Assembly: GCA_903951595.1 (NCBI GenBank)
Contig: CAJBCQ010000264.1
Span: 1-36,296 of the forward strand
Reading direction: 5' to 3'
DNA from: an uncultured Hyphomicrobiales bacterium
Lineage (GTDB): Bacteria > Pseudomonadota > Alphaproteobacteria > Rhizobiales > Aestuariivirgaceae
Length of the DNA stretch: 36,296 nt
The stretch's first letter is position 1. Each line of letters begins with the position of its first letter. Positions 9,818 through 30,571 of this stretch are shown here, piece after piece. The position numbers were made by a program, and so were the translations under genes. The notes beneath the pieces were generated by a model that saw only the letters and a list, made by a program, of their open reading frames with translations, did no database searches and was not told the origin of the DNA.

Positions 9818-10888
9818 ATGGCTAATCTGAAAGTTGTCGAGACCGGCATGGACAAGCAAAAGGCACTGGACGCGGCGCTGGGGCAAATTGAGCGCGCGTT
9901 CGGCAAAGGCTCCATTATGAAATTGGGCGCCTCTACGGCGCTGGAAGTGGAAGCGGTTTCTACAGGCTCGCTGGGCCTCGACATCGCTTTGGGCATTGGT
10001 GGCCTGCCGAAGGGCCGCGTGATTGAGATTTATGGGCCGGAAAGTTCCGGCAAGACGACACTGGCGTTGCAAACCTTGGCTGAATGCCAAAAGCGCGGCG
10101 GTATCTGCGCCTTTGTGGACGCTGAACATGCGCTCGACCCTTCCTATGCCAAGAAGCTTGGCGTCAATCTGGATGAGCTTCTGATCTCGCAGCCGGACAC
10201 GGGCGAACAGGCGCTGGAAATCGCCGATACGCTGGTGCGCTCTGGGGCGGTTGAAATCCTTGTCATCGACTCGGTGGCGGCTTTGACGCCGCGGGCTGAA
10301 ATCGAAGGCGAAATGGGCGATTCATTGCCCGGTTTGCAGGCCCGTTTGATGAGCCAGGCTCTCCGCAAGCTCACCGCTTCCATCTCCAAGACCAATTGCA
10401 TGGTGATTTTCATCAACCAGATCCGCATGAAGATCGGTGTGATGTTTGGTAGCCCCGAGACGACGACGGGCGGCAATGCGCTGAAATTCTATGCCTCTGT
10501 GCGCCTCGACATTCGCCGCATCGGTGCCATCAAGGACCGGGAAGAAGTGGTGGGCAACCAGACCCGCGTGAAAGTGGTCAAGAACAAGGTCGCCCCGCCC
10601 TTCCGTCAGGTTGAATTCGACATCATGTATGGCGAAGGCATTTCCAAGGTGGGCGAGCTGATCGATTTGGGTGTAACGGCCGGAATCGTCGAGAAATCCG
10701 GCTCTTGGTACTCCTATGACGGTGAGCGCATCGGGCAGGGGCGTGACAATGCCAAGACCTTCCTGCGCGCCAATCCGGACATGGCCAATGCGATTGAGGC
10801 CAAGATCCGCGCCAATGCGGGACTGATCGCGGCCAAGATCACGGGTGCGCCCAGTTCTGATGGCGACGCTGACTCGCCTGACGAATAA
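9818..10888 (+). CDS. recA: Recombinase RecA
   Basis: [59 protein letters not shown], full-length 356 aa. Confidence 0.98.
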
Positions 10889-10977
10889 GCTCTTTTTGAC
10901 CTTCTGAACCTCATTTCGGGCGCCCATCCCTCACCCCCGGGAGCCCGGAAAAGGTGTGTGCCCCACACCGCAAAGGC

Positions 10978-11003
10978 CGCCCTCCCGCTCCCCCGGGAGG
11001 GCG
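10978..11003 (+). terminator. Hairpin / probable terminator between recA and alaS
   Basis: Perfect 10-bp inverted repeat CGCCCTCCCG-CTCCCC-CGGGAGGGCG followed by TTTGCGTTT. Confidence 0.65.
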
Positions 11004-11123
11004 TTTGCGTTTCGGGTGGCCTTTGTCTGGCACCTGTGGGGCCGCAAATGTGGACACACATGCAATCCTTGGCTTAATAGGGGCCAGCATCCGCATTCTT
11101 TTAGCAAAGCGAAGATAAGCCCC

Positions 11124-13778
11124 ATGTCCGGTCTCAGCGAAATCCGTTCCACCTTCCTCGATTACTTCCGCAAAGCAGGCCATGAGATTGTGGCCTCCAG
11201 CCCGCTCGTGCCGCGCAATGACCCGACATTGATGTTCACCAATTCCGGCATGGTGCAATTCAAGAATGTGTTCACGGGCGTTGAGAAGCGGCCCTATTCG
11301 CGCGCGGCCACCGCGCAGAAATGCGTGCGCGCCGGGGGCAAGCATAATGATCTTGATAATGTGGGCTATACCGCGCGCCATCACACTTTCTTCGAAATGC
11401 TCGGCAATTTCTCTTTCGGCGATTATTTCAAGGAAAATGCCATTGAGCATGCGTGGAAGCTGATCACGCAGGAATATGGGCTTGATAAGAACAAGCTATG
11501 TGTGACCGTCTATCACACCGATGATGAGGCCTTTGGTTTGTGGAAGAAGATCGCGGGGCTTCCTGAATCCAAGATCATCCGCATCGACACCCATGACAAT
11601 TTCTGGGCGATGGGCGACACCGGGCCATGCGGGCCGTGCTCGGAAATCTTCTTTGACCATGGCGACAAAATCGCCGGCGGGCCTCCGGGTTCAGCGGATG
11701 CCGATGGGGATCGGTTCATCGAAATCTGGAATCTCGTGTTCATGCAATATGAGCAAGTGACGAAGGAAGAGCGCGTAAACCTGCCGCGCCCGTCGATTGA
11801 TACGGGCATGGGGCTGGAGCGCGTTTCGGCCGTGTTGCAGGGCGTGCATGACAATTATGACATCGACCTGTTCAAATCGCTCATCCGCGCGATTGAGGAG
11901 CAGACGGGTGTTCCGGCCGAGGGCAAGGCCAAGGCTTCCAATCGCGTGATCGCCGACCATTTGCGCGCTTCGGCTTTTCTCATTGCTGATGGCGTGCTGC
12001 CTTCCAATGAAGGGCGCGGCTATGTGCTGCGCCGCATCATGCGCCGGGCCATGCGGCATATTGAATTGCTGGGTGCGCGTGATCCCATGATGTTTAAGCT
12101 CGTGCCCGCTTTGGTGCGCGAAATGGGGGCGGCCTATGCCGAATTGCCGCGCGCGCAAGGCTTGATTGAAGAAACGCTTCAGCTCGAAGAAACCCGCTTC
12201 CGCAAAACGCTGGATCGCGGGCTTAAGCTGCTCGATGAAGAAACCGCGAATTTGAAGGAAGGCGACAAGCTTTCCGGCACTGCGGCTTTCAAGCTTTACG
12301 ACACTTATGGTTTCCCGCTCGACCTCACGCAGGATGCGCTGCGCGCGCGTGGCATTACGGTGGACACGGATGTGTTTGCATCTGAAATGGAACGCCAGAA
12401 AGCCGAAGCGCGCAAAGCTTGGACGGGTTCGGGTGAGGCCAAAACCGAAACCATCTGGTTTGATGTGCGCGATAAGCAGGGGGCGAGCGAATTCCTCGGC
12501 TATGACACGGAGCGAGCTGAAGGTGTCGTCAAATCCATCGTCCAAGATGGCAAGGAATTGACCGCACTGGCGCAAGGCCAGTCGGGGCAGATCGTGCTCA
12601 ACCAGACGCCGTTTTATGCCGAGTCCGGCGGCCAGGTGGGTGATGAAGGCATGATCCGCACAGCCGATGGCGCACGCTTCCGCGTCACCTCCACCACCAA
12701 GCGTTTGGGTGATCTCTTCGTTCATGCCGGCGTGCTGGAACATGGCGTGCTAAAGGCAGGCGATGCGGTGGAATTGGAGGTGGATCACACCCGCCGTTCG
12801 GCCACGCGCATGCACCATTCTGCCACGCATTTGCTGCATGAAGCACTGCGCCGGGTGCTGGGCACTCATGTGGCGCAAAAAGGTTCGCTTGTGGAGCCGG
12901 GGCGTTTGCGTTTCGATTTCTCGCACACCAAGCCGATGAGCGAAGCGGAAACGGCTGAGACCGAGGCCATCGCCAACCGCATTGTTTCGCAGAATGATGC
13001 GGTTTCCACCCGCCTGATGAGTGTGGATGATGCGATTGCCGAAGGGGCCATGGCGTTGTTCGGCGAGAAATATGGCGATGAAGTGCGGGTCGTTTCGATG
13101 GGCCGGGGCTTGGGTGCGGATGACAAGCCGGTTTATTCGCTGGAACTGTGTGGCGGCACGCATGTGGGCCGCACGGGTGATATTGGGCTTATCAAGATCG
13201 TGGCCGAAAGCGGTTCTGCGGCCGGGGTTCGCCGTTTGGAAGCCTTGGCGGGGGATGCTGCGCGTGATTATCTCAACGCGCAAGACAAACGGCTTTCCGA
13301 CACGGCCAATGTGCTGAAAGTCTCGCCCGCCGATGTGCCGGAGCGCGTGGCAGCGCTTGTGGAACAGGCGCGGCGTTTGGAGCGTGAGCTTTCAGACGCC
13401 AAGCGCAAGCTTGCCATGGGTGGCGGTGGTGCGGCGGATGAAGCGGCTGTGGTGGCGGTGAATGGCGTCAACTTCATGGGCCGCGTGTTGCAGGGGCTGG
13501 ATCCGAAGGATTTGAAGCCGATGGCCGATGAGGCCAAGAAAACAATCGGCTCTGGCGTTATTGCGCTGGCGGCCGTCAGTGATGATGGCAAGGGTGCCAT
13601 TGTGGTGGCGGTGACGGATGATCTGACGGGCAAATTCTCAGCCGTTGATCTGGTGCGCTTAGGCTCGGCTGCCATGGGCGGCAAGGGCGGCGGCGGCAGG
13701 CCAGACATGGCGCAGGCCGGTGGCCCAGATGGGGCCAATGCGGCGGCGGCGGTGGGGGCGGTGAAGGGGGCTATTTAA
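11124..13778 (+). CDS. alaS: Alanyl-tRNA synthetase
   Basis: [52 protein letters not shown]..., [36 protein letters not shown] at 11124; the track ORF extends upstream without support. Confidence 0.97.
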
Positions 13779-13787
13779 TCTTCGTCT

Positions 13788-13817
13788 TCCCGGACGCCAC
13801 GAAGTGGTGCGCCGGGA
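13788..13817. repeat. Palindromic intergenic hairpin downstream of alaS
   Basis: TCCCGG-A-CGCCAC-GAA-GTGGTG-CG-CCGGGA (one GU pair). A second hairpin GCCCGGC-TCAAG-GCCGGGC lies at 13847-13865. Confidence 0.55.
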
Positions 13818-13973
13818 CAGGGCTTTCGGCCTTCGATCCAGCCCTGGCCCGGCTCAAGGCCGGGCTGACGTGTGATGAAGGGTCATGCCACTTCCGTCTC
13901 AATTGCAGGCACCAGCGGCTTACGTTAACAATCCGCGCTATTGCAGCGCAACATTCAGAACTCTGAGGGAATC

Positions 13974-15185
13974 ATGGCGAAAATCAAGGTGGCGAATCCG
14001 GTTGTGGAGCTGGACGGTGATGAGATGACGCGCATCATCTGGCAGCTCATCAAGGACAAGCTGATCCACCCCTATCTTGATATTCCCCTCGAATATTACG
14101 ATCTGTCGGTTGAAAACCGCGATGCCACGGGCGATCAGGTGACGATCGACAGTGCCAATGCCATCAAGAAGCATGGTGTGGGTGTGAAATGCGCCACCAT
14201 CACGCCGGATGAGCAGCGTGTGAAGGAATTCAACCTCAAGAAAATGTGGAAGTCGCCCAATGGCACCATCCGCAATATTCTGGGTGGCGTGATTTTCCGC
14301 GAGCCGATCATCTGCAAGAATGTGCCGCGTTTGGTGCCGGGTTGGACGCAGCCCATCATCATCGGCCGCCACGCCTATGGTGACCAATATCGCGCCACCG
14401 ATTTCAAGTTCCCCGGTGCGGGCACGCTGTCGATCAAGTTCGTGGGCGATGATGGCCAAGTGATTGAGCATGAAGTGTTCAAGGCACCCGATGCCGGTGT
14501 GGCGATGGCCATGTATAATCTGGATGACTCGATCCGCGAATTTGCGCGCGCTTCGCTGAATTATGGCTTGTTGCGGAATTATCCGGTTTATCTCTCGACG
14601 AAGAACACCATCCTGAAAGCCTATGACGGGCGCTTTAAGGATATTTTCCAAGAGATTTTCGACGCTGAGTTCAAAGACAAATTCGCCGCCGCCAAGATCA
14701 CCTATGAGCATCGCCTCATCGACGACATGGTGGCTTCGGCCATGAAGTGGTCGGGCGGTTATGTGTGGGCGTGCAAGAATTATGATGGTGACGTGCAGTC
14801 GGACACCGTGGCGCAGGGCTTCGGCTCGCTCGGCCTCATGACTTCCGTTCTGATGACGCCCGATGGCCGCACGATGGAAGCGGAAGCCGCGCATGGTACA
14901 GTGACGCGCCATTACCGTCTGCATCAGCAGGGCAAGGAAACCTCCACCAATTCCACCGCCTCCATCTTCGCCTGGACGCGCGGGCTTTCGCATCGCGCCA
15001 AGCTCGACGGCAATGCCGAGCTTGGCCGCTTTGCCGAAACGCTGGAGAAGGTGACGGTGGATGCGATTGAGCAGGGCTTCATGACCAAGGATTTGGCCGT
15101 GCTGGTGGGGCCGGAGCAGAAGTGGCTTTCCACCGAAGGCTTCCTCGACAAGGTGGACATGCTGTTGCAGAAGGCGATGGCCTGA
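13974..15185 (+). CDS. icd: NADP-dependent isocitrate dehydrogenase
   Basis: [31 protein letters not shown]...[43 protein letters not shown] at 13974. Confidence 0.96.
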
Positions 15186-15221
15186 CGCGAAATAGCCCGC
15201 GCAGGCTTTCGGCTGTTGGCG

Positions 15222-15389
15222 GTGAGGGTGGCTTTGCCAAACCGCACACTGTCGGCTTTCCTTGAAATCGCCGCTTTGATCCTCGTCATATTGCCCATCA
15301 TCATGGGCTGCTATGCGTTGCCTGCGATGCAGACAGGCAGCCTGTCATGGTGGCAGGGGCTTGCGGGGATGAACGCCCTTCGGGGCTGA
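15222..15389 (+). CDS. Possible small membrane protein (~55 aa, GTG start)
   Basis: VRVALPNRTLSAFLEIAALILVILPIIMGCYALPAMQTGSLSWWQGLAGMNALRG*, with one hydrophobic segment. Absent from the ORF track, probably because it is short. Confidence 0.4.
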   Translation: MRVALPNRTLSAFLEIAALILVILPIIMGCYALPAMQTGSLSWWQGLAGMNALRG

Positions 15390-15408
15390 AGCAGAAAGGA
15401 CGTGCGCC

Positions 15409-15891
15409 ATGCAAGGCAAGCCGCTTTTAACCGGAGGCTGCCAGTGTGGCACCGTCCGCTATGCCATTCTGGAAGAACCCGGCCGCGCCAGCATCTGCCA
15501 TTGCCGCATGTGCCAAAAGGCATTCGGCAATTTCGGCGCGCCCTTGGTGAATGTGGACCGCACAGCCTTGCGCTGGACGCGCGGGGTGCCTTCCGAATTC
15601 CGCTCGTCAGTTCCCGTGGCGCGTGGCTTTTGCAGCCATTGCGGCACGCCTTTATACATGGTGGAGGACGGCAGCGAAAACGTAGAAATCGCCATCTGCA
15701 CGCTGGACACACCGGACGCGGTGACGCCGCAATATCAGACGGGGGTGGAGAGCGAAGTAGCTTGGTTCAAAATTCTACATGAATTGCCGAGGGAGCGGAC
15801 GGAGGATTACCGCACGCGCGAGGAGCTGGAAGGGCTGAGGAGCTTGCAGCATCCGGATTATGATATGGAGGAGTGGGTGGTGAGGGGGTGA
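15409..15891 (+). CDS. GFA family (glutathione-dependent formaldehyde-activating / CENP-V-like) zinc-binding protein
   Basis: GGCQCGTVRYAI, CHCRMCQKAFG and GFCSHCGTPLYM cysteine motifs. Confidence 0.92.
   Translation: MQGKPLLTGGCQCGTVRYAILEEPGRASICHCRMCQKAFGNFGAPLVNVDRTALRWTRGVPSEFRSSVPVARGFCSHCGTPLYMVEDGSENVEIAICTLDTPDAVTPQYQTGVESEVAWFKILHELPRERTEDYRTREELEGLRSLQHPDYDMEEWVVRG
15739..15891 (+). repeat. Direct repeat copy 1 (153 bp, 3' end of the GFA gene)
   Basis: acgggggtggagagcgaagtagcttggttcaaaattctacatgaattgccg...gagtgggtgg...TGA. Pairs with 16437-16589 at an offset of 698 bp, with 7 mismatches counted by eye (four in the last 11 bp). Confidence 0.97.
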
Positions 15892-16113
15892 TGCAATTCG
15901 CGCTGGTGCGAAGGTTGTATGTGTGAAAATATCTACTCAAGATAGAGCGGTTCGGGGTGTTCATCTGAATGCAAGCGGCGGCGTTCAAAAAGCACAAGGA
16001 TCTGGCACTGTTCTTCAGTGTGATCTGTTCGCTCCTTTTTTCTCTTTTTCAGATTTTGTATTGTTAGATCAAGGTGAGCTAACTCGATTTGTTCTAAATT
16101 TGATGCCAAAAAA

Positions 16114-16431
16114 ATGCCGCTATTTGAATCGCTTTCAACCCGAGATGCCGCAAGTTTCGCATATGTCTCAATAGTCAGTCTTGCGTATATGTTCGCATCA
16201 ATATTGATAATTTTCATCAATATTTTTCAGGTGGGCCTTGTTCGTGGTAAATTACTTTTTTTGTTGATTTCGTGGGTTTACAGCTTTTCTTCGCAGCACT
16301 TGGCATTAGCGCAATACATAGCTGATTGGAATGTCTCAGTTTCAATCTTCATGTGGGGAGTCATCAACTGCATACTTTCGTTTGCCGCGCTATCAGTAAG
16401 CAAGGAAGCTGACAAAGCGCATAACAGTTAA
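16114..16431 (+). CDS. Small predicted membrane protein (105 aa, ~3 TM) in the inserted segment
   Basis: Hydrophobic stretches FAYVSIVSLAYMFASILIIFINIF, LLFLLISWVYSFSSQHLALAQYI, VSVSIFMWGVINCILSFAALSV. In an AT-rich block; stop lies 5 bp before repeat copy 2. Confidence 0.5.
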   Translation: MPLFESLSTRDAASFAYVSIVSLAYMFASILIIFINIFQVGLVRGKLLFLLISWVYSFSSQHLALAQYIADWNVSVSIFMWGVINCILSFAALSVSKEADKAHNS

Positions 16432-16436
16432 GTTCA

Positions 16437-16589
16437 ACGGGGGTGGAGAGCGAAGTAGCTTGGTTCAAAATTCTACATGAATTGCCGAAGGAGCGGACGG
16501 AGGATTACCGCACACGCGAGGAGCTGGAAGGGCTGAGGAGCTTGCAGCATCCGGGTTATGATATGGAGGAGTGGGTGGTTAAAAGGTGA
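16437..16589 (+). pseudogene. Direct repeat copy 2: detached 3' fragment of the GFA gene
   Basis: Same frame as the GFA C-terminus (TGVESEVAWFKILHELPKERTEDYRTREELEGLRSLQHPGYDMEEWVVKR*). An in-frame TAA lies just upstream and there is no full N-terminus. Confidence 0.9.
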
Positions 16590-16593
16590 TTCC

Positions 16594-17163
16594 ATGCAGT
16601 CTCCGCGGGGTAGGGCGGTTGAGTTGGTGACGGATCGTTTCACTATCCGCAGTTTGCGGGCAGGTGATGCGATGGGAGTGTTTGCGGATTGGATTGCTGA
16701 TGCGGAGCTGATGGGCGCGCTCAATATGCCGCCGCGGCGGTTTGCTGTGGCGGAGCTTCAGTCATTCATTCTCGCTCATGACGACCACTCGCGATATCTT
16801 ACCGGCATTTTCACACGCGAAGGTGGGGCGCTGATTGGTGTGCTGATGATCGAGATCACCCACGCGCACCAGCTTGCCAAAGTTTCCGGCTTTCTGGGCG
16901 ACCGCAGCTGGTGGGGCAAATCGGTTTTGGAGGAGGCGGGACGGGCGCTGTTCGGCGAATTCTTCGGCAAGCGTGGCATGGCCAAGGCCACAGCACAGGT
17001 GTGGGAAAAGAACTATGCCATTTCCATCCCTCTGCGGCGGCTGGGGTTTCGGGTAGAGGGATTATTGAAGGATGAGATTCGCATATTTGATGGCAGTGGT
17101 CGGCGCAGCCAATTCATTCTGGGGCTGCTGGCTTCAGATTGGCAAGCGGATCAGAAGCCGTAA
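16594..17163 (+). CDS. GNAT family N-acetyltransferase (RimJ/RimL-like)
   Basis: LVTDRFTIRSLRAGDAMGVFADWIADAELM...GFLGDRSWWGKSVLEEAGRALFGEFFGKRGMAKATAQVWEKNYAISIPLRRLGFRVEGLLKD. ATG at 16594. Confidence 0.85.
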   Translation: MQSPRGRAVELVTDRFTIRSLRAGDAMGVFADWIADAELMGALNMPPRRFAVAELQSFILAHDDHSRYLTGIFTREGGALIGVLMIEITHAHQLAKVSGFLGDRSWWGKSVLEEAGRALFGEFFGKRGMAKATAQVWEKNYAISIPLRRLGFRVEGLLKDEIRIFDGSGRRSQFILGLLASDWQADQKP

Positions 17164-17768
17164 GTCAGCCCTACCCGCGCTACGACCATGGATGTATCCA
17201 ATTCGATTGACGGGTTTGTGAGCGTTTCCAGATTGAGGGTTTCTTTTTGGAAGTTCAAATACAGGCCCTCTGCCTTGATATGGATGCGTTCTGAAATTTG
17301 TTGTTCTAAGCCGCCGCCAATCGTCCATCCGTTCATGTGGTCACGGTCGCTGCCATTGGCATTTGCAACGTCAATGCCCAGCATCGCCAATCCGCCCGTC
17401 GCATAAAACAGGGTTCCGTCAGCGTGAAGGCCCGCGCGCGCCCGCGCTGTGGCAAACCAGTCCTGATCGGCCGTCACTGTGTTTTTTAGCGCCAGCTCGG
17501 TTCCGGTTCCGATCGCGGAAATGTCTCCTTCAAGGCCGAAGACAAAATTGCCATGTTGCAGATTGCCGCCAAGCCCCAGACCTGCAAGGGCGTTGAGATC
17601 ATGGTCCTTGGTGGAGCTTGTGCCTTGCTCGCCAAAAACTTCGACACGCGAAAGGCCGACGGTGCCGGTGCCATAAAAGCCGGTCCATTCATCAGCCATT
17701 GCGGGCTGAACGGTTGAAAATATGAGCAACGTGCTGATGGAAAGAAAGATTTTCAAGGCGATTCCCAA
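17151..17768 (-). CDS. Outer-membrane beta-barrel (porin-like) protein
   Basis: Signal peptide MGIALKIFLSISTLLIFSTVQPAMA, repeated amphipathic strands, WFATARARAGLHADGTLFYATGGLA, C-terminal VARVGLTYGF (terminal Phe). Confidence 0.85.
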   Translation of the reverse strand: MGIALKIFLSISTLLIFSTVQPAMADEWTGFYGTGTVGLSRVEVFGEQGTSSTKDHDLNALAGLGLGGNLQHGNFVFGLEGDISAIGTGTELALKNTVTADQDWFATARARAGLHADGTLFYATGGLAMLGIDVANANGSDRDHMNGWTIGGGLEQQISERIHIKAEGLYLNFQKETLNLETLTNPSIELDTSMVVARVGLTYGF

Positions 17769-17874
17769 ATAACTTCTTCTTAATACTTAATTATTGGCAG
17801 TATTCTGCTTGTTGGTCAACCAAGTGGGCCGCCCCCTTGCCCTCCACCCCCCGCTCGTGGCAATTCCTCATCCC

Positions 17875-18687
17875 ATGTCTGGAACCGATCATACCCAAGA
17901 GAACCCCAAAAGTCCCGGCCCCTGCGTCATTCTGGTGGAGCCGCAATTGGGGGAGAATATTGGCACGGCCGCGCGGGCCATGGCGAATTTTGGCTTGCAT
18001 GATATGCGCCTTGTGGCCCCGCGTGATGGCTGGCCCAATGAGCGGGCGGGCAAGGCGGCTTCGGGTGCGGATTGGATTCTGGAAGGGGCCAGCATCCACG
18101 CCGATACGGTGCAGGCGGTTAGCGATCTCAATTATGTCTATGCCACCACCGCGCGCCCGCGCGACATGGTGAAGGAAGTCATCACGCCGGAGCAGGCTGG
18201 ACTCGATATGCGCCGCCGGATTGCGGCGGGTCAGAAGGTTGGCATTCTTTTTGGGCGCGAGCGTATCGGGCTGCTCAATGAGGAAATCAGCTTGGCGGAT
18301 GTGATCATGATGGCACCGGTCAACCCTGCTTTCGCCTCCATCAATGTAGCGCAAGCTGTGCTGCTGGTGGGTTATGAATGGTATAAGCACGAGGCCACCA
18401 CGCTGGGCCAGGCCACGCCGCAGGAAGCGGCCTTAACGGGGCCGGGCTTGCAGCAGGCAGGCTCAACACCTGCCACGAAGGAGCAGCTGGAGGGTTTCTT
18501 CCAGCATCTGGAGCGCGAGCTTACCGATTGCGGCTTTCTGCGTCCGCCGGAAAAGGCGCCGAGCATGATGCGTAGCATCCGCAATATCTATATGCGCTGT
18601 CAGCTTACCGCCCATGAAGTCAGCTCTCTGCGCGGCATCGTGTCGGGTCTCACCTATAAGCACACGCGCGGCAAGCAGAGCGAATGA
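17875..18687 (+). CDS. trmJ: TrmJ-like SPOUT RNA methyltransferase
   Basis: VILVEPQLGENIGTAARAMANFGLHDMRLVAPRDGW, GILFGRERIGLLNEEISLADVIMMAPVNPAFASINVAQAVLLVGYE. ATG at 17875. Confidence 0.85.
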   Translation: MSGTDHTQENPKSPGPCVILVEPQLGENIGTAARAMANFGLHDMRLVAPRDGWPNERAGKAASGADWILEGASIHADTVQAVSDLNYVYATTARPRDMVKEVITPEQAGLDMRRRIAAGQKVGILFGRERIGLLNEEISLADVIMMAPVNPAFASINVAQAVLLVGYEWYKHEATTLGQATPQEAALTGPGLQQAGSTPATKEQLEGFFQHLERELTDCGFLRPPEKAPSMMRSIRNIYMRCQLTAHEVSSLRGIVSGLTYKHTRGKQSE

Positions 18688-19493
18688 GCCGCCCGCCCCG
18701 CATCCTGCTGTTTGATTCCGGCATGGGCGGGCTTACCGTGGCGGCGGCTGTCGCCCAAAGGCTGCCGCAGGCTGAGTTGTTCTATTGCGCCGATAGTGCC
18801 GGTTTTCCCTATGGCGCGTGGGAAGAGGTGACGCTGATTGAGCGCATTCTTGCCGTTGTTGGCCGCGCGGTGGCGCGCACGCTGCCGGATGTGTGCGTTG
18901 TTGCCTGCAACACGGCCTCCACCATCGCCTTGAACCAATTGCGCGAGATTTACCCGCTGCCTTTCGTGGGAACCGTGCCCGCCATCAAGCCTGCGGCTGA
19001 ACAAACCCGCTCTGGCATTATTGGCGTGCTGGCAACCCCCGCCACGGTGAAGCGCGAATATACGCAAGGCCTCATCCAAGCCTATGCGGCGCAAGCTTGC
19101 GTGTTCCTGCATGGCGCAGCCCGGCTGGCGGGCATGGCGGAAGCCAAGCTCAAGGGCGAGGGGGTTGATCTTGCCGAACTCGCCGATGAAATCGCCCCCG
19201 TTTTCCGCATACGCGGTGAGGCGCGCACCGATTGCGTGGTGTTGGGCTGCACGCATTATCCGCTGCTGGCCGAGGAGATGAAGCTGGCCGCACCTTGGGA
19301 AGTATCGTGGATCGACCCATCCCCGGCCATCGCACGCCGCGTGGCCGATGTGCTGGCGCGCGAGCGCCTTTCGGAGCAGGGGCCATCGGGGGCGGTGAAG
19401 GCGGGGACGGTGATGTTTACCGATGGCAAGGGCGCGAAAAACGCCGCAGCTTATGGGCCGTTGTTTGGGCGGGTGGAGATGTTGGAGGTTTGA
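18684..19493 (+). CDS. murI: Glutamate racemase
   Basis: ILLFDSGMGGLTVAAAV, VVACNTASTIAL, GVLATPATVKREYTQGLI, VVLGCTHYPLLAEEM. 4-bp ATGA overlap with trmJ. Confidence 0.95.
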   Translation: MSRPPRILLFDSGMGGLTVAAAVAQRLPQAELFYCADSAGFPYGAWEEVTLIERILAVVGRAVARTLPDVCVVACNTASTIALNQLREIYPLPFVGTVPAIKPAAEQTRSGIIGVLATPATVKREYTQGLIQAYAAQACVFLHGAARLAGMAEAKLKGEGVDLAELADEIAPVFRIRGEARTDCVVLGCTHYPLLAEEMKLAAPWEVSWIDPSPAIARRVADVLARERLSEQGPSGAVKAGTVMFTDGKGAKNAAAYGPLFGRVEMLEV

Positions 19494-19777: not shown

Positions 19778-20890
<1,113 letters not shown>

Positions 20891-20917
20891 TCGATCAAGC
20901 ACAACGCACAAACAACC

Positions 20918-20945
20918 AAGGGCCCCTTTTCAGGGGCCCTTTTTT
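20918..20945 (+). terminator. Rho-independent terminator of the TRAP dctP gene
   Basis: AAGGGCCCC-TTTTCA-GGGGCCCTT followed by a T tract. Confidence 0.9.
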
Positions 20946-22581
20946 AATCGAAGCTTGGTGGAGGCGCTGTTGTATCCAAGCTTGGTATTTCGATATGGAT
21001 GGAGTTCGTGTCGATCACGGCTGCAGCTTTGGGAATGGAAAGCTGAGGGAATAGCATAATCATGCCCACCATGAAGATCTGCAGCACAATGAAAACCATC
21101 GCCCCACGGTAAATCTGGGTGGTGGAAATGCCTGCGACCTGTTTGCCAGTCACCTTATCGGTGTAGGTGCCGGAAGGTGCCACGGAGCGCATGTAAAATA
21201 GTGAAAAGCCAAAGGGTGGTGTCAGAAAGCTTGTTTGCAAATTCATACCCAGTATGACGCCGAACCAGACAAGGTCGATTCCCAGTTTCGCTGCAACCGG
21301 TACGATGAGTGGAATAACGATAAAGGCGATTTCAAAAAAGTCGATGAAGCAGCCGAGGATGAATACCAGCAGATTGACCACCAGCAGGAAGCCCCACACG
21401 CCGCCGGGCAAATCGAGGAAAAGCTCCTCAACCCATATATGTCCGTTGATGCCATAAAAAGTCAGCGAGAAAATGCGGCTACCGATCAGGATGAACAGCA
21501 CGAAGCAGGAAAGGCGGGTGGTGGCGTCTAGCGCCTCACTCATTAGAGTGAAGTTTAGGCGGCGTTTTGCAAAGCCGAGCAGCAATGCGCCTGCTGCGCC
21601 CATGGCACCACCTTCTGTTGGTGTGGCAATGCCCAGAAAGATTGTGCCCAGCACAAGAAAGATGAGCGCCAGTGGCGGAATGAGCACGATGATCACTTGT
21701 TGCGCCAGCCGTGAAAGCAAGCCAAAGCCGCCCGCCTTATCGGCCACTGCCACGGCATAGGCCGCTAGCACCCCGATGCAGGCGGCCCAGATTCCATCAC
21801 CCTGTCCGGGGATTTGCTGCAGCACCAGATAGCTGGCGATGGCAAGGGCTGCTGCGCCTGATGCCACCACCAGCAGGGACGTGAAACTGCCTGTCAGCGT
21901 GCGGGCGGATAGGGGAAGGGCGGGTACGGATTTGGGCGAAACAATCGAGATAAACAGAATATAGCTGCAATATACCCCCACCAGAATCATGCTGGGAATG
22001 ATGGCGCCGGCATACATGTCGCCAACCGAAACCCCCAGCTGGTCGGCCAGCACGATTAGCACCAGTGAAGGCGGTACGATTTGCGCCAAGGTGCCGGATG
22101 CAGTGATGACGCCAGCCGCCAGCGGTCGGTCATAGCCATAGCGCAGCATGATGGGCAGCGAGATGAGACCCATGGCCATGACGGATGCCGCCACCACGCC
22201 GGTCGTGGCTGCCAGCAACGCGCCCACTAGAATGACCGCATAGGCAAGCCCGCCGCGCACGGGGCCGAAGAGCTGGCCGATGGTATCCAGCAAATCCTCT
22301 GCCATTCCAGATCGCTCAAGGATAATGCCCATGAAGGTGAAGAATGGAATGGCCAACAGGGCATCGTTGCGCATCACATCCAGCACGCGGCCGGGCAGTG
22401 TTTGCAGCAAGGGCCAAGATAATGAAATGTCGTTGGAATAGGGTGACAGTTCAACAGCGATGGCAAAGAACAAAAGTCCGTTCGCCGCAATGGCAATGGC
22501 AACCGGATAGCCCAGCAGCAGGAATACGATCAGCGCCATGAACATGATTGGCGCCAAATTATGGGCAATGAACTCGATCAT
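20944..22581 (-). CDS. TRAP transporter large permease subunit (DctM-like)
   Basis: 545 aa, multiple TM segments; FMGIILERSGMAEDLLDTIGQLFGPVRGGLAYAVILVGALLAATTGVVAASVMAMGLISLPIMLRYGYDRPLAAGVITASGTLAQIVPPS. Confidence 0.95.
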   Translation of the reverse strand: MIEFIAHNLAPIMFMALIVFLLLGYPVAIAIAANGLLFFAIAVELSPYSNDISLSWPLLQTLPGRVLDVMRNDALLAIPFFTFMGIILERSGMAEDLLDTIGQLFGPVRGGLAYAVILVGALLAATTGVVAASVMAMGLISLPIMLRYGYDRPLAAGVITASGTLAQIVPPSLVLIVLADQLGVSVGDMYAGAIIPSMILVGVYCSYILFISIVSPKSVPALPLSARTLTGSFTSLLVVASGAAALAIASYLVLQQIPGQGDGIWAACIGVLAAYAVAVADKAGGFGLLSRLAQQVIIVLIPPLALIFLVLGTIFLGIATPTEGGAMGAAGALLLGFAKRRLNFTLMSEALDATTRLSCFVLFILIGSRIFSLTFYGINGHIWVEELFLDLPGGVWGFLLVVNLLVFILGCFIDFFEIAFIVIPLIVPVAAKLGIDLVWFGVILGMNLQTSFLTPPFGFSLFYMRSVAPSGTYTDKVTGKQVAGISTTQIYRGAMVFIVLQIFMVGMIMLFPQLSIPKAAAVIDTNSIHIEIPSLDTTAPPPSFD

Positions 22582-24232: not shown

Positions 24233-24643
24233 GTGAACACCCAGCCCACAAAACGCATACTCACCTACGGCACGTTTGATGTCCTGCATTTCGGGCATAT
24301 GCGGTTGCTTACGCGCGCGCGCAAGCTGGGCGACAAGCTGTTGGTGGGCCTTTCCAGTGACAGTTTCAATGCCATGAAAGGTAAGCAGGCAGACTGGAGC
24401 TATGAGCGCCGCCGCGAGGCGTTGCTGGCCACGCGGCTTGTGGATTTTGTGTTCCCGGAGACGCATTGGGAGCAGAAGCCAGGCGACATTGCGCGGCTGA
24501 ACATCGACACATTCGTGATGGGCGATGATTGGCAAGGCAAGTTTGATGATCTGAGCGCGCATTGCGATGTGGTCTATCTGTCGCGCACGCCGGGCATTTC
24601 TTCAACTTTGCTGCGCAATGCCATGCGGGCAGCTGTGGTTTGA
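24233..24643 (+). CDS. Glycerol-3-phosphate cytidylyltransferase-like protein (TagD family)
   Basis: RILTYGTFDVLHFGHMRLLTRARKLGDKLLVGLSSDSFN, WEQKPGDIARLNIDTFVMGDDWQGKFDDL, VVYLSRTPGISST. GTG start. Confidence 0.9.
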   Translation: MNTQPTKRILTYGTFDVLHFGHMRLLTRARKLGDKLLVGLSSDSFNAMKGKQADWSYERRREALLATRLVDFVFPETHWEQKPGDIARLNIDTFVMGDDWQGKFDDLSAHCDVVYLSRTPGISSTLLRNAMRAAVV

Positions 24644-24644
24644 C

Positions 24645-25565
24645 ATGAGCGAGCCGCATCTCAACCGACAGCCCTTGGCGGTACGCTTGTTCGTGGCACC
24701 TGCGCTGCGGCTGGCGCTGGCGGCGAGCTTGTTGCTGTGCTTGGTCGGTTTCTGGATGCTGCATATCTTCCGCAAGCTCACGGGTAAGGGCGCACCAGAA
24801 GGCTCTGCAAAAAAGTATCCAACCCGCAAGCGGCCCATGCATATGGGCAACGCACTTGCCGCACTGAAGCTTACGCAGAAACTGGCGGATCAATGTGGTG
24901 CCAAGCCATTCCTGATTTCGGGCACGCTGTTAGGCATCCACCGCAATGGTGCGTTATTGGCGCATGACAACGATCTGGACCTTGGCATTTTCGCGGATGA
25001 TCCGGCCTTGGGCGCGCTGGTTCAAGGTTTGCGCGCGGCACCACAGGTGGTGCGGTTAACTGAAAATCGGCTGGGGGCAGTTGGCAGAATTGCCAATCCT
25101 TCCATTCCCAATCTCTATGATGATGTGATCCTCTACAAGATCAATTTGCAATGCCTGCCCGATGCGCGGCCTGTGCGGCTGGATTTATTCGTACACTTCA
25201 ATGTCCAGGGCTTTGTGGCCCACGGCTCCACACGCACGCTATGGGCTAATTCCCCCTTCACTCTGTCCCAAATGGAACTGGAAGGTGCCAAATTCTGGGC
25301 ACCGGCAGACCGAACACTCTATCTGACTGAGAATTACGGGGATTTCAGCGTGCCGAAAGTGAACTTCGAAAGCTCGGTGGATTGTCCGAACGGGATGAAC
25401 ATTCTGACGTTTCCAGCCTGTGCAATGCTGGCGAAGAAGTGGGTGATGTTCGGCATTTCAAAAGACCGTATTCGTGAAAACCTCTTGTGCCGAAGAGGAT
25501 ACGATTTTTGCAGGATGAGTTTGGGGTTGAGGTCGATCTCTTCCATCGCCAATGAAGTGAAATAA
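24645..25565 (+). CDS. LicD/fukutin-like nucleotidyltransferase-fold phosphotransferase with N-terminal TM anchor
   Basis: KPFLISGTLLGIHRNGALLAHDNDLDLGIF resembles the LicD/FKTN GTLLG...DxDxD core; N-terminal TM LALAASLLLCLVGFWMLHIF. ATG at 24645, 1 bp after the TagD-like stop. Confidence 0.7.
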   Translation: MSEPHLNRQPLAVRLFVAPALRLALAASLLLCLVGFWMLHIFRKLTGKGAPEGSAKKYPTRKRPMHMGNALAALKLTQKLADQCGAKPFLISGTLLGIHRNGALLAHDNDLDLGIFADDPALGALVQGLRAAPQVVRLTENRLGAVGRIANPSIPNLYDDVILYKINLQCLPDARPVRLDLFVHFNVQGFVAHGSTRTLWANSPFTLSQMELEGAKFWAPADRTLYLTENYGDFSVPKVNFESSVDCPNGMNILTFPACAMLAKKWVMFGISKDRIRENLLCRRGYDFCRMSLGLRSISSIANEVK

Positions 25566-25573
25566 GCAATCCA

Positions 25574-26971
25574 ATGAAATTCAAACGCAAATCTGCCTCA
25601 GACAGCGATCAGGGCAAGATCACTTCTGACCATCTACAGAAAAACGCAGCCATTAAAATCGCTGCGCGATTACTAAGCAAATCTGGGATTCAATACTGGG
25701 TCTTTGAATGTGGTGTTGGAAGTGTTTTTCTTGTGGTGCGTGACTATGACCTGAGGGCGACTTACGCTGCACTTAGAGAATGCAAAGACCTCTACATGGG
25801 CTCCATGTGGCAACGTATAAAGCTTAATCTCCTATTTTTCAAAAAACTTAAAATATCTAGTCGCCTAAAGGAATCTGGATCGTTTCAACTCCTAAGCCTA
25901 GCTTCCTCAAAAGGAAAACATACGAATAAGTTGAGATTGAGCAAAGACACACCAATCGGGCGCTATGTTGAATCTGAGTTTTTGGAAGGATTCCCCGACG
26001 GCATCGAGACTCCAATTTCACGACGAAATTTGCTGCAGCATATCAACTTCCCGATTGATGTCGTTTACACTTGGGTGGATTCATCAGACAAGAAGTGGGC
26101 AGCAAAATTAGCAAAGTTCAAGCCAGCCAAAATTGGTAATGAAACGCGAGACTCGGTTTCTGACGCAAGGTGGCGGAGTTGGGATGAGCTTTTCTATTCT
26201 ATGAAATCCATTGAAAAATATGCGCCTTGGGTTCGGAAGGTATTTGTTGTCACGGATCAACAGAAACCGGACTGGTGGATAACTAGAAAAGATGTTGTGA
26301 TCGTTCATCATCGCGACTTTTTTGCCAAGTACATTTCACTACCGACGTTTAACTCCCATGTTATTGAGTCACAATTACACAGGATTCCAGGTCTGAGTGA
26401 GCACTTTATCTATTTCAATGATGATGTATTTCTTGCAAGATCTCTTAAGCCGTCAAGTTTCTTTTTGCCAACTGGTATAAGCAAATTCTTTCCGTCGTCC
26501 GCTATGTTGCCTCTGGGTGATGTAGTTGCGGACGACATAGCACCCGATGCAGCGGGAAAGAATCTGCGAAAAATGCTTGGCGATTCAATTGTCACGCCTG
26601 TAAACAAAATGAAACACACACCTCATCCGCTGCGTAAGTCGATTCTTGGTGAACTAGAGATGCGCTTCTCGAAGCAATATCATGAATTGGGTCAAAACAA
26701 ATTCCGCTCTAGTAATGACTTCTCACCAGTCACACAATTATATCCCTATTGGGCATTCTTACGTGGGCTTGCAGTTCCGTCGACATGTAAACTGTACTAT
26801 TTTGATATGGCTACGAAGAGTGCCATAAAACTGAGTTTTAGGTTGTTAAGGATGGGCCGATTTGATTTCTTCTGTCTGAACATGAGCCAAGGAACAGGTA
26901 ATGCGACTTGGTTCAGGATCAAGACAAATGTAATCCGCTTCTTACTTGCCTGCAAATTCTCAACCAAATAA
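25574..26971 (+). CDS. Stealth-family capsular polysaccharide phosphotransferase
   Basis: IDVVYTWVDSSDKKW (CR1), RDSVSDARWRSWDELFYSMKSIEKYAPWVRKVFVVTDQQKPDW (CR2), HVIESQLHRIPGLSEHFIYFNDDVFL (CR3). Confidence 0.9.
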   Translation: MKFKRKSASDSDQGKITSDHLQKNAAIKIAARLLSKSGIQYWVFECGVGSVFLVVRDYDLRATYAALRECKDLYMGSMWQRIKLNLLFFKKLKISSRLKESGSFQLLSLASSKGKHTNKLRLSKDTPIGRYVESEFLEGFPDGIETPISRRNLLQHINFPIDVVYTWVDSSDKKWAAKLAKFKPAKIGNETRDSVSDARWRSWDELFYSMKSIEKYAPWVRKVFVVTDQQKPDWWITRKDVVIVHHRDFFAKYISLPTFNSHVIESQLHRIPGLSEHFIYFNDDVFLARSLKPSSFFLPTGISKFFPSSAMLPLGDVVADDIAPDAAGKNLRKMLGDSIVTPVNKMKHTPHPLRKSILGELEMRFSKQYHELGQNKFRSSNDFSPVTQLYPYWAFLRGLAVPSTCKLYYFDMATKSAIKLSFRLLRMGRFDFFCLNMSQGTGNATWFRIKTNVIRFLLACKFSTK

Positions 26972-27012
26972 CGTCTTAAGAACTCAAAAGAAAACCCGAA
27001 GAAAGCTACACT

Positions 27013-27774
27013 ATGATCCGTCAGTTCTTAAATCGCCTTCTTCTTCCGTATAAAATTCGTATCGTGCGTCTAAATGGCCGTCTTTCTGAACTCCATCATT
27101 TGCTGCAACCTTATAATTATAAAATTCAGAAGAGATTTTTGAGAGGTCATGGGAGCGTTGTTTCTCGTGGACCTTTTTCGGGTCTTCAGTTTAGGCGAGA
27201 TGCAAAAAAACTTTTAGGCACTTACGAGCACGAGCTTCACGATTCGGTTGAGGAGCTGATTTGTTTCAAGCCAGATGTGATTTTGAATATTGGATCGGCG
27301 GATGGATACTACGCCTTAGGCCTCGCCAAGCGTCTGCCGGAATCAAAGGTATTTGCTTTTGACTTGAACAAAAAATTTGAAGGAATTATCTCAGAATTAG
27401 CGAATAGAAACAACGTCACCGTTCATTTCTTCGCCCGAGCTTTTGATAAAAATGATTTAACTCACGTAAACGGTTTGAAAACTGCAGTTGTACTTGATGT
27501 GGAAGGTGCAGAAATGCAAGTGTTGGAGACATTTGGTAATTCACTCAATGGGATGTTCTTGATTATCGAAACACATGATATTTTTGTGCCGGACATCACA
27601 AAAGCTGTCGTCAGTCGGCTTGAAGCCACACATGAGATCTCTGAAATAGAAGAAGCTACTAAGCAGACTGATTTGCCAGCACTAAGTGCCTTTAGTTGCC
27701 TTGATCGTGCGCTTCTGGTTAATGAGTTTAGGGCTGGCAAACAGGTTTGGCTTGTTGCTAGACCGCGTGGCTGA
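27013..27774 (+). CDS. FkbM-like SAM-dependent methyltransferase
   Basis: DVILNIGSADGYYALGLAKRLPESKVFAFDLN (SAM-binding motif I-like), TAVVLDVEGAEMQVLETF. Confidence 0.65.
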   Translation: MIRQFLNRLLLPYKIRIVRLNGRLSELHHLLQPYNYKIQKRFLRGHGSVVSRGPFSGLQFRRDAKKLLGTYEHELHDSVEELICFKPDVILNIGSADGYYALGLAKRLPESKVFAFDLNKKFEGIISELANRNNVTVHFFARAFDKNDLTHVNGLKTAVVLDVEGAEMQVLETFGNSLNGMFLIIETHDIFVPDITKAVVSRLEATHEISEIEEATKQTDLPALSAFSCLDRALLVNEFRAGKQVWLVARPRG

Positions 27775-27782
27775 GTAGTAAA

Positions 27783-28859
27783 ATGCTTGCTGTCTGTTTT
27801 ATAACAAATGAACGCCACCTTTCGCTTGCAGTCGTGGCCGCGAGGCAAGCGGAGAAGTTCAAATCATCAGCAGATATTCATATATTCATCGAGGACGCGG
27901 GATTTGATCTAGCTCGTCTGGAGGTGCTTTCGCGGCAGCACGCACATCACTTTCATCTTAACGAGCTTAGTCGCTTTATACCAGATGGACTGCCGCAGAA
28001 CGAGAGATGGCCTTCCTTGACGTTTGGGCGATTGTTCCTCGCAAATGTTTTGCAGGGTTACGATCGTATTCTCTACTTGGACAATGACATACTTGTTGTT
28101 CGAGACTATTCCAAGCTTGTTGATATAGAATTTGGCGACGCGGCATTGGCCGCAGTGACCGACTTTTCTGTTTTGTACAAGATAAGCGACCCCGAGAAGT
28201 TTGGAGGTATGCAATGGTCAGACTGGTTTCGACGGATTGGTAAAAAGCATAATACCTATTTTAATTCAGGTGTACTTTTGATTAATCCTTCGAAATGGCT
28301 TGCTGAGAAGCCCCACGCTTCATTGAATCGTTTTTTTTCAGAATATGGGTATTGGGCAAGAATGTATGATCAGGATTTTTTGAATTGGTTTTTTGATGGC
28401 AAATGGTTAGAGCTTTCTCCTCGCTGGAATTTTCCTGGTTATTTTTTTGGCTTGGGCTTCGAAGATACTCTCAAGCCTACGTTCCTACACTTTTATGGTA
28501 GCCGCGTTCCTTGGCGTAATTTTCCTTTTCAGGTTGAGCATCGCAGATTTGCAAGGGCTTATGCTTCGCTTTGCGAAGAGGTAGGCCTGCAATTTAGCGA
28601 CTTGCCCAACTCTGGCTATTCTCGTGATATAGTTTGGGGCTACTTGCAGAGGATATACTTGAAGCTTTTGTCGTTTGTTTTCAAGCCGAAGCTGGCGTTG
28701 AGGCGATGGAAACGACGCTCCGCTGTACTGCAAAGTTATTTTGACGACCATCAGCTGTTTGTTGATGGTGAAGTGGTGGCGAGTAACCGAGCGGCACGCC
28801 CCGTCTATGTCGGAAACAAGTTTTTTGATATGAGATGGGTTAAAGATTTGGACTTATAA
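27783..28859 (+). CDS. Glycosyltransferase family 8-like protein
   Basis: WPSLTFGRLFLANVLQGYDRILYLDNDILVVRDYSKLVDIEFGDAALAAVTD, YFNSGVLLINPSKW, YDQDFLNWFFDGKWLELSPRWN. Confidence 0.88.
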   Translation: MLAVCFITNERHLSLAVVAARQAEKFKSSADIHIFIEDAGFDLARLEVLSRQHAHHFHLNELSRFIPDGLPQNERWPSLTFGRLFLANVLQGYDRILYLDNDILVVRDYSKLVDIEFGDAALAAVTDFSVLYKISDPEKFGGMQWSDWFRRIGKKHNTYFNSGVLLINPSKWLAEKPHASLNRFFSEYGYWARMYDQDFLNWFFDGKWLELSPRWNFPGYFFGLGFEDTLKPTFLHFYGSRVPWRNFPFQVEHRRFARAYASLCEEVGLQFSDLPNSGYSRDIVWGYLQRIYLKLLSFVFKPKLALRRWKRRSAVLQSYFDDHQLFVDGEVVASNRAARPVYVGNKFFDMRWVKDLDL

Positions 28860-28861
28860 TC

Positions 28862-30571
28862 ATGACCACCCCCCTCATACTCACCGCCCTTCGTCTCGTC
28901 CCCCTCCGGCGGCGGGTGTTGATGGTTGTTTGCCTGTTCATCTACAGCATTGTCGATCTTCTCGGCGTTACCATGCTCATCCCTTTGCTGGGATTTGCTG
29001 TTCCAACTGAGGGGCGGTCCAACAAATATCAGGAATTTCTGGATCCCGTTTTCGCCTTCCTGCACCTCACCCCCGGCATTGAGGGGGTGTTGGTGCTTTA
29101 TGCTGGGTTGATCCTGCTTAAAACCGTGTTCTCGGTGCTGCTCATGCAGGTTACGGGGCGGCTGGTGGCTAATCTCACGCAGTCCATTCGGCATCGGCTT
29201 TCGGAAGGCTTGATGCGCGTGAAGTGGCCTTGGCTGATGCGCCATTCGGTGGCTCATCTCACTGCCATTGCCAGCCGCCAGTCCAGCACCGTGGGTGAGA
29301 TGTTCCACAATGCCGCCAATCTGATTGCCATGGTCTTGCAGGTGCTGGCCTATGTGGCACTGGCTTTCGTGTTTTCCTGGCAGGCGGCCCTATTGGCCTT
29401 GGCGCTGGGGGGCATGGTGTTTGGTTGGTTCGGCACCATTGTTCGCATGCGCGGGGCTTCGGCCGAGCGATATGCGGTGGCCGCTTCCGGCCTTGCCTCG
29501 CGCTTTGCCGATGTGCTCACCAATATCCGCTCCATCCGTGGCATGGGCCGCACGCCGCAGCTGTTGGGCCTTATGCGGGCGCAGTCGGCTGACATGAAGC
29601 AGAGCTTCCGTAACAAGCTCATCATGTCGGATCTGTCGGCGGAGATTTTGGAACCGGTTACGGCGCTTATTATCGCTTTTTGGTTCTATATGGCGCTCGT
29701 TTGGTGGCAGCTGCCCATGCACCATCTGTTCGTCATCGGGCTGTTGCTCATTCGCTCCAGCACGCTGTTGTTCAGCGTCTATCGCCTCATGTTCCGGGTG
29801 GTGGATGCGAGCGACACTTTCCGCAGCGTGTTGCGCGTGCTGGATGACACCAAGCGTCATGCCGAAAGCTTCAAGGGCCGGGCAGCACCCAGTCTCAATA
29901 ACGCGCTGGAGGTAAAGGATTTGAGCTTCAGCTATGACAAGAAGCATGTGCTGGAGGATTTTTCGCTCACTTGCCATGCCGGGCAAATCACCGCGCTGAG
30001 TGGAAGTTCGGGGGCAGGCAAGTCCACGCTTATTGATATTCTTCTGGGCCTGCAATTGCCGCGCAAGGGCCAGGTGCTGCTGGATGGAAGCTCCTTGTTT
30101 GATGAGCTGGATGTGGAGGCCTGGCGCAGTCTGATCGGCTATGTGCCGCAGGAGCAGACGCTGTTCCACGATACGGTCATGCGAAACATTACGCTCGGTG
30201 ATGATCATCTCACGGTGGACGATTGCTGGCGCGCGCTTGAGCAAGCAGGTGCTGCTGAATTTGTGCGGGGCTTGGCTGCTGGGCTGCAAACAAATGCGGG
30301 CGAACGCGGGGCCGCCCTTTCTGGCGGTCAACGCCAGCGCATCATGCTGGCGCGCGCGCTCGTTCGTCGCCCGCGCTTTTTGGTGCTGGATGAGGCCACC
30401 GCAGCGCTGGACCCGGAAACGGAAGCTTCTATTTGCGAGGGCGTGCGCGGCCTAGCGCGTGAACACAATATCACCGTGCTTGCCATTTCGCACCAGCCCG
30501 CTTGGGCGCACGTGGCCGATCAGGTGCGCGAATTGCAGCCCCTCACCAAGGCACCTGTCAGCGCAGGCTAA
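28862..30571 (+). CDS. ABC transporter, fused permease/ATPase (MsbA/PglK-like exporter)
   Basis: N-terminal TM domain; ALSGSSGAGKSTLIDILLGL (Walker A), ALSGGQRQRIMLARALVRRPRFLVLDEATAALD (signature and Walker B). Confidence 0.93.
   Translation: MTTPLILTALRLVPLRRRVLMVVCLFIYSIVDLLGVTMLIPLLGFAVPTEGRSNKYQEFLDPVFAFLHLTPGIEGVLVLYAGLILLKTVFSVLLMQVTGRLVANLTQSIRHRLSEGLMRVKWPWLMRHSVAHLTAIASRQSSTVGEMFHNAANLIAMVLQVLAYVALAFVFSWQAALLALALGGMVFGWFGTIVRMRGASAERYAVAASGLASRFADVLTNIRSIRGMGRTPQLLGLMRAQSADMKQSFRNKLIMSDLSAEILEPVTALIIAFWFYMALVWWQLPMHHLFVIGLLLIRSSTLLFSVYRLMFRVVDASDTFRSVLRVLDDTKRHAESFKGRAAPSLNNALEVKDLSFSYDKKHVLEDFSLTCHAGQITALSGSSGAGKSTLIDILLGLQLPRKGQVLLDGSSLFDELDVEAWRSLIGYVPQEQTLFHDTVMRNITLGDDHLTVDDCWRALEQAGAAEFVRGLAAGLQTNAGERGAALSGGQRQRIMLARALVRRPRFLVLDEATAALDPETEASICEGVRGLAREHNITVLAISHQPAWAHVADQVRELQPLTKAPVSAG

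Follow-up and report, generated by a model that had tools for sequence, protein, structure and literature searches.

How did the end of a gene come to stand twice, on either side of DNA that is unrelated to it? This question is raised by a GFA-family gene in the draft genome of an uncultured Hyphomicrobiales bacterium. The window, that is the whole stretch of DNA that we analysed, comprises 36,296 nucleotides. A preliminary description had noticed that the last 153 bp of the GFA gene recur 698 bp downstream with 7 mismatches, and our alignment confirmed this. The two copies form a direct repeat without gaps (95.4% identity), with mismatches at positions 15791, 15816, 15857, 15882, 15884, 15885 and 15886, and the longest exactly identical stretch that they share is 52 bp. 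The 5' boundary of the repeat is abrupt and lies in the middle of the GFA gene, at ACGGGGG, while the 3' boundary is the GFA stop codon (TGA and one matching T). Since the next-best direct repeat in the window is 44 nt at 75% and none comes near 153 bp, the repeat is far beyond chance. Both the repeat and the DNA enclosed by it (the cargo) match their own genome at this place alone. We also considered whether the repeat runs on beyond the GFA stop codon as far as the start of GNAT, but the local similarity there was not significant (p 0.056 and 0.51).

Features of the locus, with positions counted from the first nucleotide of the window
Feature	Position	Strand	Basis
GFA-family gene, 160 aa, intact	15409-15891	+	Pfam PF04828 GFA, E 7.4e-22
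Repeat copy 1, 3' end (last third) of the intact GFA gene	15739-15891	+	95.4% identity to 16437-16589; invariant HPD kept
AT-rich cargo, 545 bp	15892-16436		41.4% GC; single copy in own genome; plasmid, phage and IMG/VR searches gave chance matches at most
Orphan ORF, 105 aa, hydrophobic, coding status uncertain	16114-16431	+	ORF listing
Repeat copy 2, detached, decaying GFA tail lacking the start and the zinc-binding part	16437-16589	+	D to G at an invariant position; R to K
Shine-Dalgarno-like site for GNAT, AAAAGGTGAT	16582-16589 and neighbouring bases	+	7-nt run matching AAAGGAGGTGAT
GNAT acetyltransferase gene, 189 aa	16594-17163	+	PF13302, E 2.6e-11
Outer-membrane beta-barrel gene (omp), GNAT partner	17151-17768	-	PF13505, E 5.5e-13

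The GFA gene matches its family profile with 78 bits against a curated cut-off of 24.3, and its protein is at most 63% identical to the products of the GFA genes that follow icd in members of the bacterial family. Relatives often carry two or three complete GFA paralogues side by side (L008, L032, L033, L044, L046, L076, L080, L086, L105 and others); the second paralogues are complete and about 40-55% identical to our query. A virus-borne GFA was found in one IMG/VR contig, whose 44% relative is uninformative.

The fate of the two copies can be read from the residues in which they differ. Aligned with 20 related GFA proteins, copy 1 has the HPD motif whose aspartate is invariant among them, and copy 2 has HPG. 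At another position copy 1 has an arginine that matches several of the closest relatives, and copy 2 has lysine. The changes that can be polarised fall in copy 2, and nothing in copy 1 looks foreign. Since this aspartate is kept in copy 1 and in all relatives aligned, copy 2 is, judged from these residues, a detached, unconstrained and decaying copy. Its decay tells nothing about which copy came from outside; the preliminary description had taken copy 1 for the incoming replacement, a reading that these differences do not support. Four of the seven differences are nonsynonymous and three are synonymous, which gives an omega of about 0.5 between the copies, compared with about 0.11-0.28 among four relatives of genus g7 (uncorrected, and seven changes are too few for such a comparison). 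The differences lean toward drift after duplication, in a number too small for proof.

The enclosed segment was confirmed to be AT-rich, with 41.4% GC (measured over 15898-16436) against 57.0% for the window, and to carry an ORF of its own. In a 389-kb sample of the own genome 164 of 3687 equally long windows (approximately 4%) are as AT-rich, so the composition alone is weak evidence for foreign origin. Searches of plasmid, phage and IMG/VR sequences for DNA or protein relatives of the cargo gave chance matches at most. The ORF has no match in Pfam or NCBIfam and no convincing one in PHROGs, and in 298 genomes of the order and 385 of the class its matches are all weak (22-35% identity). Its length is barely above chance (p = 0.046): a Markov simulation of the longest ORF reaches it in 4.6% of trials, so the ORF may be no gene and is possibly non-coding.

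On the other side of the cargo, the stop codon of copy 2 lies 4 bp upstream of the GNAT ATG (16594), as had been described. The 7-nt run ends 3 nt upstream of this ATG. The Shine-Dalgarno-like site consists of the end of copy 2 and the next base; it is a good match at a suitable distance, from which we infer that the end of copy 2 probably still acts as the ribosome-binding site of GNAT.

Next, the surroundings of the locus were compared with those of relatives. GNAT relatives with 36-41% identity are partnered with an omp gene, not with GFA (L114-L116), and the GNAT-omp pairing recurs in L114-L116 and L141-L143. Wherever the neighbourhood of a GNAT relative in the family was read, no GFA-GNAT pair was seen. 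The gene order in relatives (> and < give the strand) is rpsD< murI< trmJ< icd> GFA> alaS< recA<. Counted over loci with readable orientation, some of which represent one genome twice, icd and GFA are on the same strand in 32 of 32, GFA and alaS are convergent in 35 of 35, and trmJ and icd are divergent in 14 of 14. The order in the window is recA> alaS> icd> GFA> cargo, tail, GNAT> omp< trmJ> murI>, with the icd-GFA block inverted in place between alaS and trmJ (region 9818-19493) compared with all relatives whose orientation could be read. The GNAT-omp pair is located between rpsD and murI in genome G072 and beside rpsD in genome G033 (L115, L116, L142 and L143), and was therefore probably relocated in the present lineage from the rpsD side to the GFA side. 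Judged by gene order, the 3' flank of GFA with its GNAT junction is a lineage-specific rearrangement seam. The preliminary description regarded copy 2 as the ancestral GFA 3' end, now detached. The detachment agrees with the decay of HPD to HPG, but the ancestral adjacency to GNAT is unsupported: it was seen in none of the relatives read, and after the inversion and the relocation it cannot be called ancestral. Elsewhere in the window, TRAP transporter genes (DctP and DctM, 19790-22581) separate murI from rpsD, two genes that relatives have close together. The partly AT-rich stretch at 24567-30571 is probably a surface polysaccharide cluster, with LicD-like, methyltransferase-like, glycosyltransferase family 8 and ABC transporter genes.

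We searched the genomes of the family and the order for an empty site, a donor or an alternative cargo and found none; the own genus is represented by its own genome alone, and thus the absent empty site reflects absent data. The matches obtained from 398 genomes of the order included no second detached or truncated GFA tail. The claim that no integrase is present was borne out for tyrosine integrases, which gave no match in the contig (C264). When four integrases of the own genome were used as queries, a single weak match lay near GFA genes of relatives; it is in L033, at a distance of approximately 5 kb from GFA rather than at its end. The suggested parallel with integration at tRNA 3' ends is one of geometry alone, as no recombinase was found and no reuse of the site was seen in relatives. 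Nearby direct repeats elsewhere in the 389 kb of the own genome are few, and none was seen with the GFA-cargo-tail layout: a short-unit tandem array in C20, repeats in C214 and C255, and one in C220 that we take to be a pair of PAP2-like paralogues. Another detached gene end of this genome is found in C73 (L186, 4988-5305 and 7708-8703), where 2.7 kb separate the intact gene of a tyrosine integrase from a truncated copy of its tail (116 bp, 85%). A tyrosine integrase of 344 aa encoded in contig C113 (L148) differs from the XerC/XerD-like pair and presumably resembles IS91-type-associated integrases.

We put it at about even chances that the 0.5 kb of unrelated DNA was captured when a single homologous crossover took place within the GFA tail. 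The donor would have consisted of a GFA tail and approximately 0.5 kb of unrelated AT-rich sequence, and recombination would have occurred by homology in the tail. The donor may have been a small circle that entered by a single crossover, or a linear piece that entered by homology-facilitated illegitimate recombination (HFIR), with one end anchored by homology and the other joined by chance. GFA would have remained intact, ending in copy 1, and the second tail would have been left before GNAT, where it lost its coding role and drifts, with its end probably serving as the GNAT ribosome-binding site. That the DNA came from another strain, in a single event, and that the old end was displaced downstream is what we infer from this layout. 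Both routes had been proposed in the preliminary description; the anatomy, a partial duplication of a homologous gene end around non-homologous DNA, fits them and both are documented experimentally (PMC3240628), while the empty site or alternative cargo that would have accompanied them was not seen in the genomes searched. This explanation is favoured because the 5' boundary is arbitrary and the 3' boundary is at the gene end, as expected if the homology of the donor ended with the shared gene. It is also supported by the intact GFA gene, by a cargo of 41% against 57% GC that is single-copy and has no relatives, by the derived residue in copy 2 and by the lack of a tyrosine integrase in the contig. 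Against it stand the missing donor, empty site and alternative cargo and the ratio of four nonsynonymous to three synonymous changes, which is more drift-like than expected of a functional conspecific donor, seven being too few to decide. The deletion and microhomology of HFIR would be visible only with the parent sequence.

Since the 3' flank of GFA is a rearrangement seam, an event confined to this locus is plausible as well, and this is the main rival to homologous capture. GFA or its tail would have been duplicated in tandem during the icd-GFA inversion and the arrival of GNAT-omp, and the 5' part of the second copy would have been lost or replaced by AT-rich DNA, all without import through GFA homology. 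The inversion relative to all relatives read, the different location of GNAT-omp in two of them, the frequency of complete tandem GFA genes and the 4:3 ratio, which fits drift after an identical duplication, all speak for it. However, the second paralogues of relatives are complete and clearly diverged, no remnant of a GFA 5' part was found in the cargo, the window shows no inverted copies of 28 nt or more, and the exact boundary at the stop codon would become a coincidence. We regard such a local duplication as less likely, with perhaps half the weight of capture. Considerably less probable is a dead site-specific element that had its attachment site in the GFA 3' end, comparable to that of e14 in icd, supplied a replacement for the gene end and was afterwards left without its recombinase. 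The geometry is that of e14, in which one tail completes the host gene and the second lies at the far end. Yet no recombinase was seen inside the element and no tyrosine recombinase in the contig, the cargo ORFs have no convincing match to known families, the cargo is merely 0.5 kb, and neither the truncated tails nor the GFA-end integrase matches expected of a reused site turned up in relatives. In the e14 case (PMC2973815), the differences are mostly synonymous (10 of 12), against three of seven here.

A misassembly, through the wrong joining of strain variants or of an array of 698-bp units that had collapsed, is about as improbable as the dead element. The genome is in 264 contigs, most sampled ones of 1.5-20 kb, and the copies are exactly identical over up to 52 bp. 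But a single sequence read twice would not differ at seven sites, a chimera joined at the repeat would in the simple case give one tail rather than two around unique DNA, the window has no N, and the join of cargo and copy 2 has no known repeat that could mislead an assembler. A staggered double-strand break followed by end joining can yield direct duplications flanking unrelated DNA, and needs no recombinase. Its Ku-dependent form, with the cargo as filler DNA, is very improbable here, as no Ku gene was found in the own genome, which is scored 100% complete; Ku-independent end joining is possible. As improbable as Ku-dependent joining is a small recombinase-free cassette family that repeatedly inserts at the 3' ends of protein genes and carries the gene's own tail, here that of GFA. 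Most likely, the locus is a scar of chance DNA capture or rearrangement, left by a single event, and not a novel kind of mobile element.

The cargo shares with integron gene cassettes a small DNA segment with one orphan ORF, and the end of this ORF, ...GCATAACAG, is reminiscent of attC. We rejected this candidate, since the window has no attC-like pair of core sites and the relevant strand forms no stable or significant fold. With e14 in E. coli icd the locus shares a near-identical replacement 3' end, which keeps the host gene intact, and a second copy at the far end. The loss of e14 alters icd at 12 positions, 10 of them synonymous and 2 nonsynonymous (PMC2973815, citing Hill et al. 1989). 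However, e14 is a 15-kb excising prophage, while here we have 0.5 kb, no recombinase and no other occupied sites among those seen. In the T6SS effector-immunity arrays of Vibrio, one-sided insertion shifts the old gene end downstream, by a mechanism that the authors propose (PMC5361080). Incoming DNA anchored by homology within a gene and old gene ends displaced downstream are common to both; in our case no effector or immunity genes were recognised, the event is single and the host is a GFA-family gene.

The locus also resembles the outcome of experiments in E. coli, in which small non-replicating circles gave gene-end duplications of 109-950 bp by single crossing-over, and HFIR joined foreign DNA anchored by one homologous end, the classical form usually leaving a deletion and 3-10 bp of microhomology (PMC3240628). 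The gene-end duplication around unrelated DNA and the lack of a site-specific recombinase are shared, the known system being RecA-dependent (PMC3240628). There, the parents were known and the event was selected, whereas here it is seen without donor or empty site. The locus is thus a real, ordinary recombination scar of a known kind, a new example and not a new system. It would represent a natural case in which short unrelated DNA was taken in via homology at one end of a gene that was kept working, and in which the leftover gene end could come to provide the translation start region for the gene that follows.
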